DNA of 64,000 nucleotides, from positions 5,157,501 to 5,221,500 of the forward strand of contig NZ_CP120997.1 of NCBI RefSeq assembly GCF_030719295.1. Reading direction: 5' to 3'. This document shows, piece by piece, positions 5,447 to 20,240 of this stretch (the stretch's first letter is position 1; each line of letters opens with the position of its first letter). The translations under genes and the position numbers were made by a program. This DNA is from Streptomyces sp. Mut1 (GTDB taxonomy: Bacteria; Actinomycetota; Actinomycetes; Streptomycetales; Streptomycetaceae). The notes under the pieces were generated by a model. That model did no database searches and was not told the DNA's origin. It saw only the letters and a list, made by a program, of their open reading frames with translations.

Positions 5447-8400
5447 TCAGCTCCAGTCTCCGAGCGGGACGAACGCCGCCCAGTGGTAGGGGTGGGACAG
5501 GTAGGCGCGGTCCGGGTCGGCGAGCATGCGGCGCTGCGCGTCCCACAGCGCGCGCCACAGCGGGCGGCCGTCCATCACGGCGCCGGTCACCTCGTCGAGC
5601 AGGGCGGCGGAGCTGGTGCGGTCCACCCGCCAGATCGGGGCGAGGACCGTGCGGGTGCCTCCGCGCAGCAGGGCGCGGGGGAGGCCGGTGAAGTCCTCGC
5701 CGGGGTGGTCCGGCTCGTGCCAGCCGACCGAGCAGGCGCGCAGCACCACACGGGACGGGGTGCGAACGCCGGTCAGGTCGCGTGCCCGCAGGAAGGTCCG
5801 CCGGGCCCGCTGCGAAGTGGGATCGGCGTGCCGGCTGGGGCGGTCGGTGCCGTCGGAGAGGAGCAGGGCGGAGTTCTCCGGATCGCTGTGGTCCTGGTAC
5901 CCGTGGCAGGCGATGTAGGCCAGGTCGGCCTGCCCGATACCGGCGAGGACCTCGTTGGGAGTGGCTTGCGTCCCGGCGAGGGAGGATAGCTGCCAGCCGG
6001 GCCCCGGGCGGAGCGCGTCGGCCTCGAATCCGTTGCCGTTGCCCGGTAGATCCTCCTCCGCCGCCACCCGTACGCACAGCACGGCCCCCGAACCGGCCGG
6101 CTTCGCGGCGCGCAGCACCGCCAGGGCCGAGATGCTCGGGGTGTACACGAGGGCCGTCTGCTCGGCGCAGTACCTGCCGTCCGGCAGCCGCAGCGCGCCG
6201 AGCGGCAGTACGGACAGCGGCCCGTGCGGCGCAACGCACAGCAGCTCGCGCCCCGCCAGCAGCTCGTGGAACGGCAGGAGTTGCTCGCTCAGGCCGTCCA
6301 GGGGCAGCGGGGCCGGCCGCCGCGGTTTGATCGGCGGGACAGGCGGGAACGCGGAGCGGTCGCCGTCGACAACGAGGCGGACCTGCTCCGCCGCGGCATG
6401 CAACTCCCCGCGCCCCACCGGGATGCGGTACCACCACAACGACTCCTCGCCGGAGGCCAGCGCGAAGCAGAAGGTCTCCGACTCGCCGGTGAAGTAGGAG
6501 GCCAGCACCATGCCTTCCTCCGGCGCGGCGTCGTCCAGCAGCCGCAACGCCTGGGCGGAGTCCGCGGGTCGCGCGGTGCGCAGCCGCACGTACTCCGGCG
6601 CGACCGGCTCCAGAGCCCCGTACAGGGACTCCAGCGCCCGCCCGTACCCGCGCCAGAGCCAGGCCCTGTCCGGACGCTGCCCGCCCGCCAGCAGCCGGTG
6701 CTCGGACAGCAGGCGCTGCTCGCTCTCCCACACCTGGCGCGGTACGCCCACCGGCTCGGCCAGCGGCATCCGGGCCAGGTCCTCGGCCATCCCGCGCGCC
6801 TTCGCCTCCTCGTGCAGGTCGAAGGCCAGCAGCCCCGGCGAGCGGTCGTCGGGCAGCGGCAGGTCCGCGCGGTACTCGTAGAGCAGGGACAACAGCGCCT
6901 CGTACAGGGGGAGTGCGAGCCCGGCCGCCTGGTCCGCGTCCTGGAGCACCGGATGCAGCTCCCGGGCACGCAGCCGCAGGACGCGGTGGTGCCACAGCAC
7001 CTCGAAGGCCCTTCGGTGCCCGCCCGGCGTCCACACCAGGAGCGCGGCCAGGCCCAGGGGCAGGTCCGGGTCCGGGAGCCGGCCGTAGGCGTCGTAGGTG
7101 TCGAGGACCTCCTTCAGCAGCCGCGCCGCCACCAGCGGACCGCGCACCTCGGCGATCGCCTCGCACACCGGTACCGCCAGGGTCTGCACGGTGCCCTGCG
7201 GCTCCCGCTCCAGCGCGCGGCGCAGCCCCTCCGCGAGCCGGTCCGCGAGCTGCCCGCGCCGCTCCGGGTCGCGCTCGACGCGGCACAGCCGTTGCAGCGC
7301 CAGCAGACAGGTGTCCGGCAGCACCGGAGGGCGTGAGGCGAAGGAGCGGAGCATGCGCTCGCGCAGCTTGGCCAGGACGAAGGAGACAGGCTCCTCGGGA
7401 CCTCCCAGCGGCACCAGCCGCGAGATCAGCATCCGCTCGCGCAGCCGCTCGGGAAGCTGCTCCGGCTGCCGCGGGTGCTCGGGGTCCCCGGACACGTAGA
7501 GGGCATAGCGGTAGCATTCCGCCGCGCCTTCGTCGTACCCCTCGGACAGTTCCAGATCGCCCATGGTGACGAACAGTTCGCCGGCGCAGGGATAGGTCGA
7601 ACCCGCCATCTCGAAGATGCCGCTCAGCAGCTCCGACTCCAGCGACATCAGAGTGCGGGGCAGGCGCGGATCGGTGCCGGAGAACAGCAGCCCGGTGAGC
7701 ATGCAGCGCAGGGGCACCGAGTGCGTCTGCCCCGTCCCCTGCTGCTCGGCGTGTTCCAGCTCGTTGCTGAGCAGTTCGAACGCCTCCCACTGTCGGTCGG
7801 TCCGCTCCAGGCAGGAGACCAGGCCGTACGTCACCGACGTACGCGCCGTGGCCCGCATCGACACCTCGGGCAGCTCCAGCAGTTCACGGTAGGCGTCGGC
7901 CGCCGCTCCCAGGGCGCCGACGGCCTCCGCGACGTGGGCGCGACGGCTGAGGAGATCCGGCCGCGAGGGCATGAACGAACCCTCGGAGTCGTTGTCCGGA
8001 CGCGCGGCGAACGCCTCCGCACGCTCCAGCGCGGGCACGGCCTCCCGGTAGCGGTGCAGGGCGATGAGGGTGTCCGCGAGCTGGACGGTCACGGCTGCCT
8101 CCTCCATGGAGGTCACCTCGGCCTCCGGGGCCATGGCCACGAGCGCCTGCTCCAGCACCTCGGCCCGGCGGGGCATGTCGTCCATCGCGAGGTACACCGA
8201 AGCCAGTTGGAGGTAGGTGTTCACCAGCGAACCCACGTCGCCCACCGCGTGCTGCAACGAGAGCGCGCGGGACGCGTGGTAGAGCGCCCGTTGGTTCCGG
8301 CCCTGCTCCAGCAGGTGATTCGCCCAGTCGGCGCGGGCCGTCACGCGGCTCGGCCCGTCCTCGGTGAGCAGCCCCAGCGCGGCGATGGCATGGGCGTTGC

Positions 8401-8821
8401 GGGTCCGGTCGGCGTCCCAGTCCGTCAGCAGCCGCACCGCGGACCGCACCGGCTCGTCCGGAAGCAGCGAGCGGTGGCGTTCCAGCACCCGGTAGGCGCC
8501 CAGTACTCCCTCGGCCGCGCAGGCCCGGCGCAGCAGCCGGGGGAATCCGTCGCCGCCGTCGGAGTCCCCGGCCTGCCGGGTGGGGGCCGGGCCGGACGCC
8601 AGGGCCTCGCAGCGGTCGGCGAGGAACGCCGCCATGTCCGCGAGCGGCGCCCGGCCCCAGCCCCGGGCCATCTCGGCATGCTGCCGCAGGAAGTCCACCG
8701 TCTCCCCGTGCCGGCCCGGTGGGATCTGCCCGAACAGGTCCAGCACTTCCCCGTACGTGGGGGCGGACAGGCTGCGCAGCGCGATCTGCAGGGGCCGGTC
8801 CTGCCGGTCCTCATCCTCCAT
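5447..8821 (-). CDS. TPR-CHAT protein (caspase-like protease)
   Basis: 1124 residues. The N-terminal two thirds form a helical repeat array with TPR-like stretches, for example around residues 180-330 (YHASRALSLQHAVGDVGSL; EAVPALERAEAF). The C-terminal about 300 residues are a CHAT domain: IACHGYQDH supplies the catalytic His (about residue 973) and VVLRACSVGW the catalytic Cys (about 1030). The tail 'SHPYHWAAFVPLGDW' is typical of the end of CHAT domains. CHAT proteases cleave specific partner proteins; TPR-CHAT is the protease of the type III-E CRISPR (Craspase) system and occurs widely in conflict systems. No CRISPR array is nearby. The gene overlaps its upstream partner by 11 bases and is coupled to the downstream gene. 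Confidence 0.9.
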   Translation of the reverse strand: MEDEDRQDRPLQIALRSLSAPTYGEVLDLFGQIPPGRHGETVDFLRQHAEMARGWGRAPLADMAAFLADRCEALASGPAPTRQAGDSDGGDGFPRLLRRACAAEGVLGAYRVLERHRSLLPDEPVRSAVRLLTDWDADRTRNAHAIAALGLLTEDGPSRVTARADWANHLLEQGRNQRALYHASRALSLQHAVGDVGSLVNTYLQLASVYLAMDDMPRRAEVLEQALVAMAPEAEVTSMEEAAVTVQLADTLIALHRYREAVPALERAEAFAARPDNDSEGSFMPSRPDLLSRRAHVAEAVGALGAAADAYRELLELPEVSMRATARTSVTYGLVSCLERTDRQWEAFELLSNELEHAEQQGTGQTHSVPLRCMLTGLLFSGTDPRLPRTLMSLESELLSGIFEMAGSTYPCAGELFVTMGDLELSEGYDEGAAECYRYALYVSGDPEHPRQPEQLPERLRERMLISRLVPLGGPEEPVSFVLAKLRERMLRSFASRPPVLPDTCLLALQRLCRVERDPERRGQLADRLAEGLRRALEREPQGTVQTLAVPVCEAIAEVRGPLVAARLLKEVLDTYDAYGRLPDPDLPLGLAALLVWTPGGHRRAFEVLWHHRVLRLRARELHPVLQDADQAAGLALPLYEALLSLLYEYRADLPLPDDRSPGLLAFDLHEEAKARGMAEDLARMPLAEPVGVPRQVWESEQRLLSEHRLLAGGQRPDRAWLWRGYGRALESLYGALEPVAPEYVRLRTARPADSAQALRLLDDAAPEEGMVLASYFTGESETFCFALASGEESLWWYRIPVGRGELHAAAEQVRLVVDGDRSAFPPVPPIKPRRPAPLPLDGLSEQLLPFHELLAGRELLCVAPHGPLSVLPLGALRLPDGRYCAEQTALVYTPSISALAVLRAAKPAGSGAVLCVRVAAEEDLPGNGNGFEADALRPGPGWQLSSLAGTQATPNEVLAGIGQADLAYIACHGYQDHSDPENSALLLSDGTDRPSRHADPTSQRARRTFLRARDLTGVRTPSRVVLRACSVGWHEPDHPGEDFTGLPRALLRGGTRTVLAPIWRVDRTSSAALLDEVTGAVMDGRPLWRALWDAQRRMLADPDRAYLSHPYHWAAFVPLGDWS

Positions 8822-9806
8822 CGTGCTGCCCCCTCCTCCGGTGCCCGCCGAGTCGCGCCAGGGCCTCTCGGTACGGTTTCGGGTGTTCGGAGGCGCGGGC
8901 GCGCAGCCGCAGCTGCTCCAGCGGCTCGCGCAGGCTCCGCTGTCCGCGCTCGGCCTCCGTCACCAGCAGCAGCGCCTCGTAGGAGGCCTCCTGCGCACGC
9001 ATGCGGCGTTCCATGAGCGTCGGCTTGTGCAGGCGGGCCAGCACCTGTGAGTGCGGTGCGGTCCTTCGCAGGCGCGCGAGCACCTTGTCCCGCTCCCGCG
9101 CGGGACCGGCCGCGATGCGGATCCGGGCCATCTGCTCCAGCGTCGTGCCCGCCACCGGCAGCATGTCCTGCTCCAGCAGGGCCGCCGCCCGGTCGTACGG
9201 TTCGAGTGCGTCCCGCGCCTCGCCGAGGGAGATCAGCGCCGCGGTGTGCAGCAACACCCGGTCCGTGCCGAGCGGTTCGTCGCCGAGGCGCTCGCGGATA
9301 TCCGCGTCCAGCGCCGTGCGCAGGCCGAGGAAGCGCAGTTCGTCGACGTGCTGCTCGTGCCGGCGGCGGGCCGCGACCAGGCGGTTCTGGGCTTCCGCGG
9401 CGCGCGGGGAGTCCTTCGGGTAGGGGGAGGTGTGCGGGCCGACGTCCTCGAATCCGCTCACCACGTGTGCCAGCAGCCACATGGCCATGTCGAGCCGTTC
9501 CGTCGCCGCGTAGGCCGTGGCCGCGTCCACCCACGCACCGCGTCGCCGGGGGTCCGAGCCGAGCGCCGAGAGCAGTGTGGCGGCCGCCCCGAAGACTTGG
9601 CCGGCCCGCAGCATCGCGACGCCGAGCAGATGCTCGTACACGGGACCGCGCGCCGCCACCTCGAAGAAGGGGCCCAGCGCACGCAACCGGTCCTGGAGGG
9701 ACGCCTGCGGCACCGGCAGCCGCTCGACCCACTCCCGCGGTAACTCCTCAGCGTCGAAAGGGGCTTCCCACCCCAGCGCCGCAGCCGCTTCGCGCACGCC
9801 CGCCAC
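8811..9806 (-). CDS. Helical-repeat (TPR-like) protein upstream of the CHAT gene
   Basis: About 331 residues if the GTG at 9806 is used. Alternatives are GTG at 9797 and GTG at 9968; the last has GGAGGGG just upstream, but the added residues look non-coding. The body is all-helical with repeated amphipathic helix pairs (HLLGVAMLRAGQVFGAAATL; WVDAATAYAATERLDMAMWL), then a charged arginine-rich C-terminal half. No named domain is recognised. Its 3' end overlaps the CHAT gene by 11 bases, so the pair is clearly one transcription unit. A role as sensor or scaffold for the protease is plausible but only inferred from context. Confidence 0.65.
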   Translation of the reverse strand: MAGVREAAAALGWEAPFDAEELPREWVERLPVPQASLQDRLRALGPFFEVAARGPVYEHLLGVAMLRAGQVFGAAATLLSALGSDPRRRGAWVDAATAYAATERLDMAMWLLAHVVSGFEDVGPHTSPYPKDSPRAAEAQNRLVAARRRHEQHVDELRFLGLRTALDADIRERLGDEPLGTDRVLLHTAALISLGEARDALEPYDRAAALLEQDMLPVAGTTLEQMARIRIAAGPARERDKVLARLRRTAPHSQVLARLHKPTLMERRMRAQEASYEALLLVTEAERGQRSLREPLEQLRLRARASEHPKPYREALARLGGHRRRGQHDGG

Positions 9807-10515
9807 CCCCGTCCGGCATACCGGTGTCCATCCTCCGGTGCGCCCTGTGCGGGCGGCAAGGTCGCCCCGGCCACTCGAACGGATGGTGTCCGCCGTCCAT
9901 GCCGGGTCCGGGGAGTGCTGACGGCCGGCGGCGCACGGTCGCGCGCCGCCCGTCCCGGGAAGGTTCACAACCCCTCCACGGCACGGGCTCATCTCTCGGC
10001 CGAGCGGGGTGCCGGCGACGACTTCCGGCCAGGAGGGCCGGGACGGGGTGGGCGGCGGCTCCGTGGCGCGGGGAAGGCGGGGCGTACGTACCGGGGTCGA
10101 TGCCGGTCCGGCGGGTGACACGTGCCGGGTGCCCTCGGGCTCCGCGGCCGGGCGGCCCGTGACCTCGGGCTTCGGTCCGTCACCCGGGAAGGGGGCGCAA
10201 CCCGGGGCCGGGGGCGGTCCGGGCCCCGGCGCGCGTGCCGGGGCCCGAGGCAGGGGCGTACGCGATATCGGGGCGACCCCCGTGGCCGACCGGGCCGGCG
10301 GTTCGAGCGGCAGGTGAAGTGGATGCCGGCCGCATAAACCCGCGTACCGCACGTCGACCGAAAAAATCCCACGGGCCGTACGGGGAACTTCATGTCCTGG
10401 CAATAAACCGCGAGCCGGTGCTATAAGTAACGAGCCCAAGGCCGGGGACCGATGAATTCTCAACAGTCCGCGTGCCGACCGAGAAAGATCATTCCACCGA
10501 AAAGGGGGGATTACG
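9807..10515. other. 709-base divergent intergenic region
   Basis: This separates the leftward CHAT operon from the rightward peptide operon. Most of it (about 9970-10380) is very GC-rich and shows no convincing reading frame on either strand. The only clear signals are near the right end, where base composition falls: a promoter-like pair and the ribosome binding site of the peptide gene. The start of the CHAT operon may lie inside the left part. Confidence 0.5.
10398..10427 (+). promoter_or_regulatory. Candidate promoter of the peptide operon
   Basis: TGGCAA (10398-10403) and TATAAG (10422-10427) are separated by 18 bases in a local AT-richer patch. They lie about 90 bases upstream of the short peptide ATG, leaving a leader of roughly 80 bases. 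The match to the housekeeping sigma consensus is fair. It is inferred from sequence only. Confidence 0.45.
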
Positions 10516-10611
10516 ATGAAGAAGATCGTCGTGCGCAAGACCGGCGGTGTGAAGCTCACTACGAGCGCGAGCGCCTACTGGCCGCCGATGTGTATCGCGG
10601 GTCAGAACTGA
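10516..10611 (+). CDS. Candidate RiPP precursor peptide, 31 residues
   Basis: This short gene has a strong ribosome binding site (AAGGGGGG, about 7 bases before ATG). The N-terminal half, MKKIVVRKTGGVKLT, is basic and leader-like. The C-terminal half, TSASAYWPPMCIAGQN, is polar and aromatic with a single Cys, like a core region. It is followed immediately by a 19-base-pair hairpin and then by a gene for a PqqD-like/M50 membrane protein. Peptide, attenuating hairpin, then RRE-bearing enzyme is the usual RiPP operon order. No described RiPP class with this core was recognised. Which residues are modified, and how, cannot be told. Confidence 0.6.
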   Translation: MKKIVVRKTGGVKLTTSASAYWPPMCIAGQN

Positions 10612-10616
10612 CGCAG

Positions 10617-10657
10617 GACGTGGTGCCCGGAATTCATCGAATTCCGGGCACCACGTC
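10617..10657 (+). terminator. 19-bp perfect hairpin between peptide and downstream genes
   Basis: Bases 10617-10635 pair perfectly with 10639-10657 around a three-base ATC loop. No T-run follows, so it probably works as a partial terminator and 3'-end stabiliser. That would give abundant peptide mRNA with lower read-through into the processing genes. It starts only 5 bases after the peptide stop codon. Confidence 0.8.
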
Positions 10658-10710
10658 GGTGTCCCCACACGACGCCGGGAGGTCGCCGGCGAATCCGACA
10701 CGGAGACGGC

Positions 10711-12105
10711 ATGGCGGATACTCGGCAGACCGCGGAGCCTGCCTTTCATCAACTGACATTCGTCCCGGAGGGCGACGAGGTGCTTGTCGGCCGGGCCGAC
10801 ACCGATTCGTACGCCCTCTTTCCCGCCGACGGCGCGATGCTGCTCCACAAGCTGACCACCGGCATGCCCCTGGCTGACGCCGTCGCCTGGTACAACGCCT
10901 CCTACGACGAGCCCGTCGACATGGAGGACTTCCTGGAGACCCTGGACGACCTGGGGTTTCTTCTAGGTGACGGGGATGATTCGGTCGTTGGAGCGCCGGC
11001 CGCCGTGCGGTACGCGCGGCTCGGCCGGGCGGTCTTCTCGCCGGTCGCCTGGGTCGTCTACGGGGCGATAGCAGTGGTGTGCGTGGTGCTCCTGGTGCGG
11101 ATGCCCGATGTGCGCCCCTATCCGAAGACCCTGTTCTTCACCGAGTCGCTGCTGCTGGTACAAGTCGGTCTGCTCTTCGCCCAGCTTCCGTTCGTTTTCC
11201 TTCATGAGTCCTTCCATGCGCTGGCCGGCCGGCGCATTGGCATTCCCTCCAGTCTCGGCGTCGGGCGGCGGCTTTACTTCGTGGTGTTCGAGACGACGCT
11301 GAACGGATTGCTCGGAGTCCCCCGGAGAAAGCGGTATCTTCCTTTCCTGGCCGGCATGGTCGCCGATACTCTGGTGTTCTGTCTGCTGGTCTGCGCGGCC
11401 GCTCTCGATGCGCATGGAAACGGCCCTGGCCTTTCCTTCTTCGGGCGTTTCGCGGTGGCCCTCGCATTTGTCACCGCGTTGCGGTTCGTCTGGCAGTTCT
11501 ACCTATTTCTGCGGACCGACCTCTATTACGTTTTCTCCACAGCTCTCGGCTGCGTCGCCCTCCACGACGCGACGCGGGCGATGATCCGGAACACCCTCTG
11601 CCGCCTGCTCGGCCTGCGGCACCGCACGGTCGACCTGGAGCAGTGGTCGGAGCGGGACCGCAAGGTCGCGCGCTGGTACGCGCCGTTCGCCGCGGCGGGC
11701 GTGCTGGTGATGCTGCTGACGGCGGCCGCCACCGCGGTCCCGGTCCTCGCTCACTTCGTACGCCTCCTCGTCGACCGGCTCGGCAACGCCGGGCACCCCG
11801 ACTCCGGCTTCTGGGACTCCGTCGGCTTCCTGGCGCTGAGCGTCGTGCAGTTCGGACTGGTCGGCGTGGTGGCCCTGCGCGACCGCGCCCGCGCCCGCGA
11901 GCAGCAGCGGCAGCGGCAGCAGAACGGAAGCCGCACGGAAGCGGCCCCGGACTCCGCCCAGGCCTCGGACTCCGCCCCGGCCCCGGACTCCGCCCCTGAC
12001 CCCGCCTCGGACTCCGTCCCCGCCGCCACCCCGGGCACCGCACCCCTCCCGCTCCCCGCTCCCACCACCGCACCCCTTCACGCAGAACAGGAACACAGCC
12101 GATGA
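10711..12105 (+). CDS. PqqD/RRE-like domain fused to multi-TM M50-type zinc metalloprotease
   Basis: 464 residues; GGAG lies 6 bases upstream of the ATG. Residues about 12-86 (LTFVPEGDEVLVGRADTDSY, ending LDDLGFLLGD) have the strand-helix pattern of a PqqD-like RiPP recognition element. Several membrane segments follow (about 107-130, 142-165, 205-230, 240-262, 313-345, 365-385). HESFH at 165-169 lies at the end of a membrane helix and fits the HExxH zinc site of M50 intramembrane peptidases. The last 60 residues are a Pro/Ala/Ser/Asp low-complexity tail. It probably binds and matures or exports the peptide encoded just upstream. Its stop codon overlaps the next start (ATGA). Confidence 0.75.
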   Translation: MADTRQTAEPAFHQLTFVPEGDEVLVGRADTDSYALFPADGAMLLHKLTTGMPLADAVAWYNASYDEPVDMEDFLETLDDLGFLLGDGDDSVVGAPAAVRYARLGRAVFSPVAWVVYGAIAVVCVVLLVRMPDVRPYPKTLFFTESLLLVQVGLLFAQLPFVFLHESFHALAGRRIGIPSSLGVGRRLYFVVFETTLNGLLGVPRRKRYLPFLAGMVADTLVFCLLVCAAALDAHGNGPGLSFFGRFAVALAFVTALRFVWQFYLFLRTDLYYVFSTALGCVALHDATRAMIRNTLCRLLGLRHRTVDLEQWSERDRKVARWYAPFAAAGVLVMLLTAAATAVPVLAHFVRLLVDRLGNAGHPDSGFWDSVGFLALSVVQFGLVGVVALRDRARAREQQRQRQQNGSRTEAAPDSAQASDSAPAPDSAPDPASDSVPAATPGTAPLPLPAPTTAPLHAEQEHSR

Positions 12106-14318
12106 GCGAGCAGCCCGCCCACCTGTGGATCGTCGGCGGCACCCGCCGGGACCGTGACGCCGCGTTGGAAGCGGTCCTTCCCCGGTCCGACGTGGGCGAG
12201 TTCCACGAGGTCAGCAGCCACCGCCGGGGCCGCGGCCCGTACGCCGGGACCGCCGCCCTGCTGAATCTGGTGGTGCCCCGGGTGTGGGCGCGGTCACCGG
12301 AGCTGGTCACCGCCCACGACGTCGAGCTGCTGTCGGTCGCCCCCGACCTGGAGTCCGTCGTGGAGCCGTCCCGGGAGACGCTCACCTCGCTGGCCGTCCC
12401 CGAGGAACGCACCCGCTTCTACGGCCCGGCGCGGACCCGGCGCCTGGCACACGGTGTGGTGGAGTTCCTGAACCGCTGGGCGGCCGAGTCCGGCCGGCCG
12501 GTCACCGTACGCTTCGACGCCGTGCACGCGGCGGACGCCACCGAGCAGGAACTGCTGGCCATCGTGCTGCGCCGGGTCGACCCGGCGAGGCTGCGCGTGG
12601 TCGTGGCCACCACCGCCGACCCGCTGCCGGCGCACGCCACCGAACTGGCCGGTGCGCTGGCCCGGTACGCCGTACGCGTGGACGCACCGGCCACCGCCGA
12701 CGCCCCCGCCGCACCGCGCCGGGGCACCGATCCGGTCCTGGCCTACGTGGAGTCCGACGGCACGTCCGACGACGCCGGCGAGCGCTCCGCCTACGAGGCC
12801 GCGCCCGCGGAGATACGGGCCGGGCTGCACGACGCCAGGGCCGCCGAGCTGGAGCGGACCCTGCCGCAGGCACACCGGCTCGGCGCTCTCCCGTACCACC
12901 TGGAACGCGGGAGCGACCCGCACGGGGCCGGGCTGCGGACGGTGCTGGAGGCGACCGGCCGCTGCGTGGACATGGGCTTCTACCACGCGGCGATCGAACT
13001 CGGCCGCCGGGCGCGGGCGCTGGCCGACCCCGAGCGGGAGGAGGACGCGTACTGCACGGCGAGCACCAGGCTGACCAGCTCGCTGGCCGTCCTCGGGCAG
13101 GTGGACGAGGCCGAGGAGATCTACTTCGACCTGCGCAGCCGCTTCACCACGCCGATGGTGCACCTGTTCTCCAACTACGCGCTCGGCATGCTGTACACCC
13201 GCCACCGCGCGCCCGACTCCCGCAACCACCTCACCGCCCGGGTCCACCTGCACACCGCCATCGCCCTGGCGTCGCAGATGCCCGAGGCGTCCCGCTCGTT
13301 CCAGAAGGTCTTCCAGCAGAACGGCCTCGCCCTGGTCGAGATGCACATGGGCAACCTGACGCGGGCCGAGGAGCTGGTGACCGAGGGGCTGGCCCGGCTC
13401 GACGCCGATCTGGCCCCGGGCGAGCACGAGTTGCACCGCTCGGTGCTGTTGCACAACCGGGGGCAGGTACGGGCCGCGCTGGGCCGGATCGAGGAGGGGG
13501 TCGCCGACCTGTCCCGGGTGATCGCCGCCGACCCCAACCACCCCGAGTACTACTTCGACCGCGCCTCGCTCCACCGCCGTTCCGGCGACACCGACGCGGC
13601 CCTCGCCGACTACCAGTGCGCCATCGACGTCAGCCCGCCGTTCCCCGAGGCGTACTACAACCGGGGCGACCTGCGCTCCGAACTCGGCGACACCAAGGGC
13701 GCCCTCGCCGACTTCGGATACGTCCTGGAGCTGGAACCGGACTACCTGCGCGCCCGGATCAACCGCGCGTCCCTGCTGCTGGAGGCCGGCGACCTCGACG
13801 GCGCCCGCGCGGACGTGACCGAGGGCCTCGCCCACCACCCCGACAGCGCCGACCTGCTCTGCACCCGTGGCCTGCTCGCCCTGGAGGACGGCGACCCCGA
13901 CGCCGCCCTGGCCGACTTCACCACGGCCCTGGACCACGACCCGGCCCTCTACGAGGCGCTGGCCAACCGCGCGGTCATCGCCCAGGAACAGGGCCGGCCC
14001 GACGACGCGGTCGAGGACCTCACCCGCGCCCTGGAACTCGTCGGCCCCGACGCGTCCCTGCTCTACAACCGCGGCTACGTGAACCGCTCGGCCGAGCGGT
14101 GGCAGGAGGCCATCGACGACTTCACCGCCGCCCTCGACCTCCCGGACGCCGACCCGGCCGAACTGCTGTGGGAACGCGCCGGCTGCCGCACCGCGAGCGG
14201 CGACCCCGACGGCGCCCGGACCGACCTGCGGCTGTGCGCCGGCCTGCCCGACTCCCCGTACGCCGACCGTGCCCGCGAGCGCCTGACGGAGATGTCCGGG
14301 GCCCCGGAGCCGGCGTGA
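12102..14318 (+). CDS. TPR protein of the candidate RiPP operon
   Basis: 738 residues, coupled to the M50 gene by an ATGA overlap. Residues 1-200 look like an alpha/beta domain (HLWIVGGTRRDRDAALEAVL; RLRVVVATTADPLPAHATEL), reminiscent of a signalling NTPase fold but lacking a clear P-loop. From about residue 420 there are at least eight consecutive TPR units; good examples are EAYYNRGDLRSELGDTKGAL and LLYNRGYVNRSAERWQEAID. TPR arrays bind peptides or proteins, so a scaffold or regulatory part in peptide maturation is likely. The exact function is unknown. It ends at a bidirectional hairpin facing the TIR operon. Confidence 0.75.
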   Translation: MSEQPAHLWIVGGTRRDRDAALEAVLPRSDVGEFHEVSSHRRGRGPYAGTAALLNLVVPRVWARSPELVTAHDVELLSVAPDLESVVEPSRETLTSLAVPEERTRFYGPARTRRLAHGVVEFLNRWAAESGRPVTVRFDAVHAADATEQELLAIVLRRVDPARLRVVVATTADPLPAHATELAGALARYAVRVDAPATADAPAAPRRGTDPVLAYVESDGTSDDAGERSAYEAAPAEIRAGLHDARAAELERTLPQAHRLGALPYHLERGSDPHGAGLRTVLEATGRCVDMGFYHAAIELGRRARALADPEREEDAYCTASTRLTSSLAVLGQVDEAEEIYFDLRSRFTTPMVHLFSNYALGMLYTRHRAPDSRNHLTARVHLHTAIALASQMPEASRSFQKVFQQNGLALVEMHMGNLTRAEELVTEGLARLDADLAPGEHELHRSVLLHNRGQVRAALGRIEEGVADLSRVIAADPNHPEYYFDRASLHRRSGDTDAALADYQCAIDVSPPFPEAYYNRGDLRSELGDTKGALADFGYVLELEPDYLRARINRASLLLEAGDLDGARADVTEGLAHHPDSADLLCTRGLLALEDGDPDAALADFTTALDHDPALYEALANRAVIAQEQGRPDDAVEDLTRALELVGPDASLLYNRGYVNRSAERWQEAIDDFTAALDLPDADPAELLWERAGCRTASGDPDGARTDLRLCAGLPDSPYADRARERLTEMSGAPEPA

Positions 14319-18706: not shown

Positions 18707-19951
18707 TCAGTCCTGCGCGGGGGCGAGCACCCGGGCCAGCGCGGGCTGCAGATCGCGTACGGCCCGGCTGCTCCGGAACCGGTGGAGCTCCCGCGCGAGA
18801 CGCCGGACGTCGCTGTTCACCGTGGCCGAGGGCACGGCCGGCATGACCCCGAGGAGTTCTCCGGCGATCGTGCACGCATGCTCGACCTCCCCGGAGGCCG
18901 CGTGGGCCAGGGACCTGCGGAAGCCGTACCGGGCACGGGTGCGCAGGGCGTGCGCAGGGAGACGGTGGCACTCCCGGTCGAGGATCTCGGCGGCGGCCTT
19001 CGGCCGGCCGAGATCGTGCAGGCACCAACCGGTCGTCATCGCCGCCGGATCGTTCACATGGGTGGTGCCGATCACGGGTCCCGCGCTGTCGCGGACGTCG
19101 TCACCCGCGAGCAGCTCCCGCGCCCTGTCGAGGCTGCGCAGGCAGTCGCGTTCCTCGCCGACGAGAGCGTGTCCCTGCGCCTCCCGCTGAGCCGCGAGTC
19201 CCCGGATGCGGGGCGGGAGGTCGTCGCGCTGCGCCCGGCGGGCCAGAGTGACGGTGGTCGCGGCGTCGCCGTCGTAGAGCGTGACCAGGGCGCGTCGCAC
19301 GAGCGCGTACGAACCCAGGTACGGATCGCCCCCGGCGCGCGCCAGTTCGGCGGCCTCGCCGGTCCAGCCGAGCGCCGCGCCGGTGTCCCCGGCCTCCTGG
19401 GCCATCCAGCCGGTGAACTCCGCGAACCGCGAGGCGAGCAGGAGCGCGGGGGTGCGTGTGGCAGAGGGGCTGCCGGCGGCCAGCCCGGCGACCGTACGAG
19501 TCTGCGTCTCCAGGAGGGGAAGCAGCAGCTTCGGGGCGGTGGACTGGCCGAGTTGGCGAAGCTGGTCGAACTGCGCCCGGAAGGACAGAAGGAGAGGACC
19601 GGCGGCGGAGTGCGGCTGACCTCCGCCCTTGAGCCCGAGATCGATCAGCGACCCCGTGCCCGCCGCGAGGACCGCCCGGCGCCCGACCTGCCAGAGGCTC
19701 GGGGCAGGGGCTTCGGCCGTGTCCGGCGCGGAATCGGGGCGGGCGGCCAGGCGCTCCAGTTCGCCCTTCGCGCCGAGGAAGGCGTCGCATCGCCGGGCCA
19801 GTTCGGACGATGCCGTACGCCCGCCGCGCTCGACCTTGCTGAGGTGGCCCTTGTCGTAGTTGAGCGCCATGGCGAAGTCGGCCAGGGACAGCCCCGCCTC
19901 CTGCCGTAATCGGCGCAGTTCCGGGCCGAAGTGTGAAGGTGTGCTCGTCAT
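18707..19951 (-). CDS. XRE-family regulator with helical C-terminal domain
   Basis: 414 residues from the ATG at 19951, with GGGGGAG upstream. Residues about 8-62 are an XRE helix-turn-helix (LRRLRQEAGLSLADFAMALN, GHLSKVERGGRTASS). The remainder is a TPR-like helical array of the kind common in large Streptomyces XRE proteins (VTLARRAQRDDLPPRIRGLA; CLRSLDRARELLAGDDV). The gene precedes the TIR operon on the same strand with a 282-base gap, so it may regulate that operon or be unrelated. Many such regulators control neighbouring toxic or developmental genes; that link is only positional here. Confidence 0.85.
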   Translation of the reverse strand: MTSTPSHFGPELRRLRQEAGLSLADFAMALNYDKGHLSKVERGGRTASSELARRCDAFLGAKGELERLAARPDSAPDTAEAPAPSLWQVGRRAVLAAGTGSLIDLGLKGGGQPHSAAGPLLLSFRAQFDQLRQLGQSTAPKLLLPLLETQTRTVAGLAAGSPSATRTPALLLASRFAEFTGWMAQEAGDTGAALGWTGEAAELARAGGDPYLGSYALVRRALVTLYDGDAATTVTLARRAQRDDLPPRIRGLAAQREAQGHALVGEERDCLRSLDRARELLAGDDVRDSAGPVIGTTHVNDPAAMTTGWCLHDLGRPKAAAEILDRECHRLPAHALRTRARYGFRRSLAHAASGEVEHACTIAGELLGVMPAVPSATVNSDVRRLARELHRFRSSRAVRDLQPALARVLAPAQD

Positions 19952-20240
19952 CGGACTCCCCCTCGAACAGTGACCGTGAGAGCCGTGTGCCCTCACGGGG
20001 GACTTTCGTTCGACGTTCACCGGCGACGCGGAGACCGGCGGCGAACACCCTTGGTGAGGGGTTCGTTCCGCTCCGCATCCAAGAGCGAGTCTGGCACGAG
20101 GTGCGGTTCAGGGATCAAGATTTGGCAGGGTTGCCTGTTGCCTCTTCTGTCCGGCGAGGCGGGACGTGTCGCATGGCGAAGGCCCCTCCGCAGGAGTACC
20201 GCGCCCCCGCGGAGAGGCCGAACCGCTCACCTGTGTGGCG

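Follow-up and report, generated by a model that had tools for sequence, protein, structure and literature searches.

Conservation of a small peptide gene with genes for an RRE/M50-like membrane protein and a TPR protein: an apparently undescribed peptide system

What does a gene for a 31-residue peptide do directly ahead of two large coupled genes? This question is raised by a locus of Streptomyces sp. Mut1 that lies within a 64,000-nucleotide (nt) stretch of contig NZ_CP120997.1 (positions 5,157,501 to 5,221,500), here called the window, to which the coordinates below refer. An earlier note had proposed an operon for a ribosomally synthesized and post-translationally modified peptide (RiPP), and the elements that it named were all found in place. 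The peptide gene (10516..10611, + strand) starts with ATG, and a purine-rich stretch resembling a ribosome-binding site, AAAAGGGGGG (10500..10509, +), ends 6 nt ahead of this codon. Its product has a conserved half, MKKIVVRKTGGVKLT, and a variable half, TSASAYWPPMCIAGQN, which contains a single Tyr and a single Cys. A perfect inverted repeat of 19 bp with a 3-nt loop (10617..10657, +) separates this gene from that of a 464-residue protein with six hydrophobic segments (10711..12105, +), which joins a PqqD-like segment, resembling a RiPP recognition element (RRE), to a part resembling M50 membrane metalloproteases. The latter gene is overlapped by 4 nt by the gene for a 738-residue tetratricopeptide repeat (TPR) protein (12102..14318, +). 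The three-gene unit of peptide, RRE-M50 and TPR protein is spread well beyond the window and conserved in many soil bacteria, and it apparently serves to produce and use a small peptide in a way that has not been described.

The sampling of this unit was based on the 464-residue protein. Using a 37-row alignment of it, the best 80 of 117 confirmed relatives were fetched with their surroundings, and all 80 loci were used. They come mostly from Streptomyces, Kitasatospora, Lentzea, Streptosporangium and kin, with one Ktedonobacter locus (L014, Chloroflexota) and one Tumebacillus locus (L044, Bacillota) as outliers. The family has at least 889 relatives at E up to 1e-3 (the best 7995 candidates scored and the best 120 listed), a number that may include distant ThiF-type members; the named relatives among the 120 listed are annotated as 'hypothetical', 'PqqD family' or 'Peptidase M50'. 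A small open reading frame (ORF) with the leader MKKIx[V/I]R[K/R]xGx[V/I][R/K]LT precedes the M50-like gene in 79 of the 80 loci, as the earlier note had expected for homologous M50/TPR pairs. A motif scan found the peptide in 76 loci, three were added by eye (L010, L050, L080), and L024 was the only locus in which neither scan nor curation recognised one. This locus has M50, TPR and flavin-reductase-like genes, and a second locus of the same genome, L018, has the peptide.

When the leader motif was run as a regular expression on 101 sources (the window, repeated as L001 and L082, and 100 loci, of which 80 include flanks of up to 8 kilobases (kb) per side), it gave 92 matches, all of them in short ORFs that precede an M50-family gene; the match in L085 was counted after strand correction, and one copy in L044 precedes the second M50 gene of that locus. 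The curated set, drawn from 82 sources (the window, the 80 loci and L085), holds 90 peptides in 81 of them, with 84 ATG and 6 GTG starts. A Shine-Dalgarno-like stretch of 4-6 nt, searched with a loose pattern, lies ahead of all 90, and the median distance from the peptide to the start of the protease match is 117.5 nt. Close pairs differ at codon positions 1, 2 and 3 in 108, 107 and 298 cases (59 pairs, which are not independent), and this is the substitution pattern of a coding sequence. Several peptide copies occur in L023, L044, L047, L059 and L073. In the Tumebacillus locus (L044:7250-11735), four peptides stand ahead of one M50/TPR set and a fifth ahead of a second set.

The peptides show the conserved leader and variable core by which a RiPP precursor is recognised. 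Across 75 distinct motif-plus-core sequences the leader is nearly fixed (Leu in 75, Thr in 74 and Gly in 69), while the end of the core varies. Both Tyr and Cys are present in 74 of the 75 distinct cores, which are related sequences and thus not as many independent events, and the remaining one comes from a copy in L059 that looks decayed. Tyr makes up 8.8% and Cys 10.6% of the core residues, compared to 2.0% and 1.0% in neighbouring proteins from crude gene calling. Among the 13 Lentzea peptides there are three core types in all, and ten read AAACSQYNxKP[AV]. No Pfam or NCBIfam family matched the peptide at E up to 1. A thiolactone of the Agr type was considered as a reading of the peptide and set aside, as the Cys appears from the core alignment to stand at no fixed distance from the peptide end.

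The RRE assignment of the 464-residue protein is by profile similarity. Its residues from about 24 to 88 (10780..10974, +) aligned to a profile of 14 PqqD sequences with an hhalign probability of 94.8 (P 5.5e-8), compared to at most 3.3 for one reversed and six column-shuffled control profiles, and this bears out the PqqD-like segment that had been suggested for this part of the protein. The Pfam model PF05402 (PqqD) matched seven of the 37 relatives at E up to 0.1 (best E 0.0025), the window's own row not among them. The zinc-site-like motif HESFH (residues 165-169; 11203..11217, +) follows immediately after the second hydrophobic segment and Asp270 (11518..11520, +) after the fourth, with the segments taken from hydropathy only. 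H165, E166, H169 and D270 are invariant in the 37-row alignment, and HExxH is kept in at least 98% of an 81-sequence alignment. This placement after segments 2 and 4 matches the M50 architecture, by which Asp270 is a candidate third zinc ligand. The protein is best called M50-like, with proteolysis as its predicted activity. A search of the PDB sequences with the M50-like alignment gave nothing at E up to 1. In locus L084, the M50-family gene carries one in-frame TGA.

The TPR family was found in all 81 loci (the 80 and the window), on the same strand as the M50-like gene and with at most 305 nt between the M50 stop and the start of the TPR match; six loci that seemed to be without it in crude gene calling were false misses, since the TPR family search found the gene in all. 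Over the 81 loci, M50 and TPR distances correlate with r 0.92, compared to a permutation maximum of 0.09. The C-terminal part of the protein is a TPR solenoid according to family scans, and TPR solenoids were among the best 60 of 100 matches in a PDB search. The N-terminal part (12102..13001, +) carries the family motif HRRxRGPY (residues 40-47) and resembles the second half of AAA_16 in nine of 11 rows (best E 6.2e-5). In the window's row this match covers profile positions 88-167 and is below the cut-off, and PF13191 is precomputed for at least four relatives among the 120 listed. A Walker A pattern is missing in 75 of 76 aligned TPR proteins, the sole match being at residue 288 of L013. The protein thus appears to be STAND-like and to be devoid of the nucleotide-binding loop. 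No helix-turn-helix (HTH) family was present among the 25 of 28 family matches listed, and PADLOC gave only a weak match to PrimPol.

A second form of the locus has the peptide and the TPR protein and is without the protease. A profile built from 30 peptides found 15 places in 12 of 345 genomes of the class. Seven strong places all have an M50 gene downstream, and the other eight, in a single family (f19), hold a sister peptide such as MKKIIVRKPGTVKLTGTASVIHKG with no M50 gene next to it; six of these eight have a TPR gene directly after. One peptide of family f19 is identical to the peptides in L037 and L042, two Streptosporangium loci, so this family looks like Streptosporangiaceae. A search of 197 genomes with the TPR N-terminus (profile built from 11 of 21 TPR pieces) gave 15 TPR genes in 10 genomes. 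All 15 have a peptide ahead: in eleven it lies directly upstream with no M50, and in four an M50 gene stands between, the peptides of these four being among the strong profile places. The 12 distinct peptides of the M50-less type contain Tyr in no case, Cys in one and a His near the end in all, and most members share a near-constant core, SVIHKG. Of 12 chosen genomes with M50-less loci, five gave no match to the M50 family at E up to 1e-10, and in another four (G169, G236, G276, G286) the only M50 members are distant ones. Inspection by eye of seven M50-less loci revealed no maturation enzyme and housekeeping-like surroundings. Regulator-like ORFs were also seen by eye upstream of several M50-less peptides (L150, L153, L154, L156, L157).

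Because the peptide-TPR pair exists without RRE-M50, the TPR protein is probably the central partner. The earlier note had placed the weight on the RRE/M50 protein. It is better to see here a pair of peptide and TPR protein, with the RRE-guided protease as an optional addition and a flavin-reductase-like gene present in half of the loci.

The M50 family also occurs in other company. The family was found in 18 of 150 genomes from the window's genus, with 19 matches. Five score like the window's form, and four of these show the peptide while L086 begins at a contig edge. The other 14 (L087-L100) are distant, and each of them is located downstream of a ThiF-like gene, at a distance of no more than about 510 nt, as counted with a model built from three of the same loci, which were themselves confirmed by Pfam. 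The TPR family was not found in the L087-L100 pieces. Larger pieces of some of these places (L135-L142) show small ORFs, such as MAEVQEETVTTVRPEEEAAPRAIEIRLLDRIETIQNKAVSR, ahead of some ThiF-type M50 relatives (L137, L138, L140). These loci share the M50 family, and in part the small ORFs in front, with the window's operon; unlike it, they have a ThiF-like adenylyltransferase in place of the TPR protein, and other peptide sequences. The ThiF-RRE-M50 loci are probably another peptide system, and RRE-M50 would be a module that joins either a peptide-TPR pair or a ThiF enzyme.

Two further features accompany the unit. The hairpin is widespread, as the folding score z is below -2 in 59 of the 78 intergenic regions scored, with the window as the most extreme (z -6.6); the scoring covered 78 of the 82 sources, the other four having a gap of more than 260 nt or no peptide. 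M50-less loci are mostly without it (z above -2 in 13 of 15). The hairpin is likely an attenuator or mRNA stabiliser. The second feature is a flavin-reductase-like gene, which in 36 of 79 assessable loci from several genera (for example L005, L008, L029, L061) is the next gene after TPR and shares its strand, and which accompanies quite different cores; two of the 81 loci were too short to assess, and the search model was built from 22 of the loci later counted. Two members scanned matched PF01613 with E 7.8e-33 and 5.8e-33. Neither the 11 larger M50-less pieces nor the eight ThiF-type pieces that were searched contained the gene. Other neighbours of the operon were clustered after crude gene calling and in part inspected by eye. 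The window itself has no linked gene for a modifying enzyme, and the flavin-reductase-like gene of the relatives was not visible to the earlier note.

The reading that we favour, at a probability of roughly 45%, is a peptide system in which the RRE-M50 protein frees a Tyr/Cys core by leader removal and the TPR protein is the cognate partner, with a signal-type role. The conserved N-terminal half of the peptide would be the recognition segment, held by the RRE-like domain, and the fused M50-like protease would cut within the membrane or close to it, probably following the near-invariant Leu-Thr, to leave a Tyr/Cys peptide of 10-20 residues. The linked flavin-reductase-like enzyme may act on the peptide as well in about half of the relatives. 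The TPR protein would be the peptide-binding partner, most likely sensing or carrying the peptide in the manner of the TPR receptors known from other peptide-signalling systems, and the hairpin would probably keep the peptide in excess over the large proteins. In the simpler M50-less form, the TPR protein would pair directly with the His-bearing peptide.

Several points weigh against this reading. The Pfam M50 model (PF02163) matched none of the 37 relatives, and hhalign against M50 profiles aligned the HExxH stretch only, with a probability of 36-58, and of 2.6 against a second M50 set; three distant M50 cousins gave E 0.0023, E 0.03 (both below the cut-off) and no match to PF02163. The peptides have no obvious signal sequence, a transporter is not regularly linked (a transporter-like cluster was seen by eye in seven of 81 loci, about 6 kb off), and no DNA-binding domain was found in the TPR protein by family scans. 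For two of the eight M50-less peptides (L198:7809, L199:7571), neither a TPR nor an M50 gene lies within about 8 kb, and two Lentzea genomes hold two loci with different cores. The flavin-reductase-like gene, which lies elsewhere in the locus in four of the 79, is linked in 40 of them overall and hints at a chemistry outside this reading. Leader binding, cleavage and its site, binding of the peptide by the TPR protein, modification and the signalling role are all steps that we infer.

Among the competing explanations, a true RiPP survives best, and we consider it unlikely. The core would be modified, for example by Tyr/Cys redox chemistry, by the flavin-reductase-like enzyme, the TPR/STAND-like protein or an unlinked enzyme, and RRE-M50 would then cut the leader. 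Redox modification is possible because the flavin-reductase-like gene follows TPR in 36 of 79 loci, and its product may be a modifying or redox partner. The absence of this gene from the 11 M50-less pieces points the same way, as do the Tyr and Cys in nearly all M50-accompanied cores, set against the Tyr-free peptides of the M50-less type, and the ThiF-like genes beside the distant M50 relatives. A TPR-containing arginase acts on the RiPP precursor in a biphenomycin-like pathway (PMC12257519). On the other side, no linked flavin-reductase-like gene was found in 39 of the 79 assessable loci, the window included, family scans recognised no modifying domain in the M50-like or TPR protein, and the varying Tyr-Cys spacing would speak against one fixed crosslink. 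The proposal of a RiPP operon is partly supported, for the precursor and the recognition domain; no linked modifying enzyme was found in the window.

Somewhat less probable again is an antimicrobial peptide, in which the Tyr/Cys core, cut and exported by RRE-M50, would be a weapon, with the TPR protein conferring immunity or acting as a chaperone. Cleavage and export of an antimicrobial epipeptide have been proposed for EpeP, an M50 enzyme (PMC10885120), the core varies between genera while the leader is fixed, and some loci hold multiple peptide copies. However, a transporter is not regularly linked, most Lentzea cores are alike, and the M50-less form has a near-constant core in most members, among genes that look housekeeping-like by eye. 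A signal or fixed role is favoured over an arms race because the Lentzea cores are steady and SVIHKG is constant in most M50-less members, and the peptide is more probably a signal than a weapon.

It is improbable that the second protein is a membrane carrier or metal-dependent switch, to which the RRE would bring the peptide at the membrane and in which the M50-like motif would be structural. The failure to reach the Pfam M50 cut-off and the alignment of the HExxH stretch alone would be expected of such a protein, but the four invariant residues are placed as in M50 enzymes. That the small ORF is a regulatory leader (an attenuating upstream ORF) of the M50/TPR operon and no product at all is very hard to credit: it does sit upstream of a strong hairpin, but its sequence is conserved across three phyla, the hairpin is mostly missing before the TPR-only loci, and there are several copies in some loci and two copies standing alone.

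The favoured peptide system with RRE-M50 and TPR protein resembles several known systems in part. EpeP is also known as YydH. M50 enzymes mature peptides in the epipeptide and pearlin pathways, where, similar to this locus, a membrane M50 protease (EpeP; TglG/TmoG) is encoded with a small ribosomal peptide (PMC10885120). Unlike in those pathways, no radical SAM or PEARL gene was recognised here, the RRE is fused to the protease, and a TPR protein is the partner. Fusions of an RRE with a leader peptidase occur in the B protein of lasso peptides, which thus also unites leader recognition and cleavage (here predicted) in one polypeptide (PMC7470986). In contrast to the lasso enzyme, a cysteine protease that works with a cyclase (PMC10885120), the protein described here is metalloprotease-like and membrane-bound by its hydrophobic segments, and no cyclase was recognised. 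TPR proteins of unclear role also accompany graspetide loci (PMC8939145).

The locus also shares features with RRNPP(A) signalling (Rap, Rgg, PlcR), in which a small peptide gene lies beside a TPR protein and some systems have a membrane protease. RRNPP receptors are TPR proteins, and Eep is an M50 protease in some RRNPP systems. A C-terminal TPR domain with a peptide gene nearby, by which RRNPP members are recognised, was found for the TPR protein of this unit. Unlike RRNPP receptors, it has a STAND-like N-terminus in place of an HTH or Rap-type effector, and the peptide has a cationic recognition half. The FxSxx-COOH system is likewise an actinobacterial short peptide with a TPR protein; in contrast to it, the window's peptide is without the FxSxx end, and the family scans gave no such NCBIfam match.

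No description of the system was found in the open-access literature, as searched by titles and the beginnings of abstracts, a scope that leaves most subscription papers outside. The combination of peptide, RRE-M50 and TPR protein is not mentioned in the excerpts of PMC12710340, PMC13381572 and PMC12250964, and none of six terms looked for occurs in the main text of PMC7794033. A specific Pfam or NCBIfam family model was not found for the peptide, the M50-like or the TPR protein either.

A wider picture, possible in our view and held tentatively, is one of swappable modules. A cationic peptide and a STAND-derived TPR receptor would be ancestral, and some lineages would have added an RRE-guided intramembrane protease, often with a flavoenzyme, to yield a secreted Tyr/Cys signal. 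The result would be an actinobacterial counterpart of RRNPP that reuses RiPP-type leader recognition and reaches Chloroflexota and Bacillota. RRE-guided peptide maturation and TPR-based peptide recognition, normally separate fields, come together in this locus. The occurrence of Tyr-plus-Cys cores with the protease is a sharp, testable rule, and the unit is small enough for expression of the whole operon.

In the window, a gene for a CHAT-domain protein with TPR-like repeats (5450-8821, - strand; Pfam CHAT E 3.2e-37) lies upstream of the peptide operon, and beside it is a further ORF (8814-9732) with no Pfam match. A gene for an HTH_31 regulator is located at 18710-19996 (- strand).

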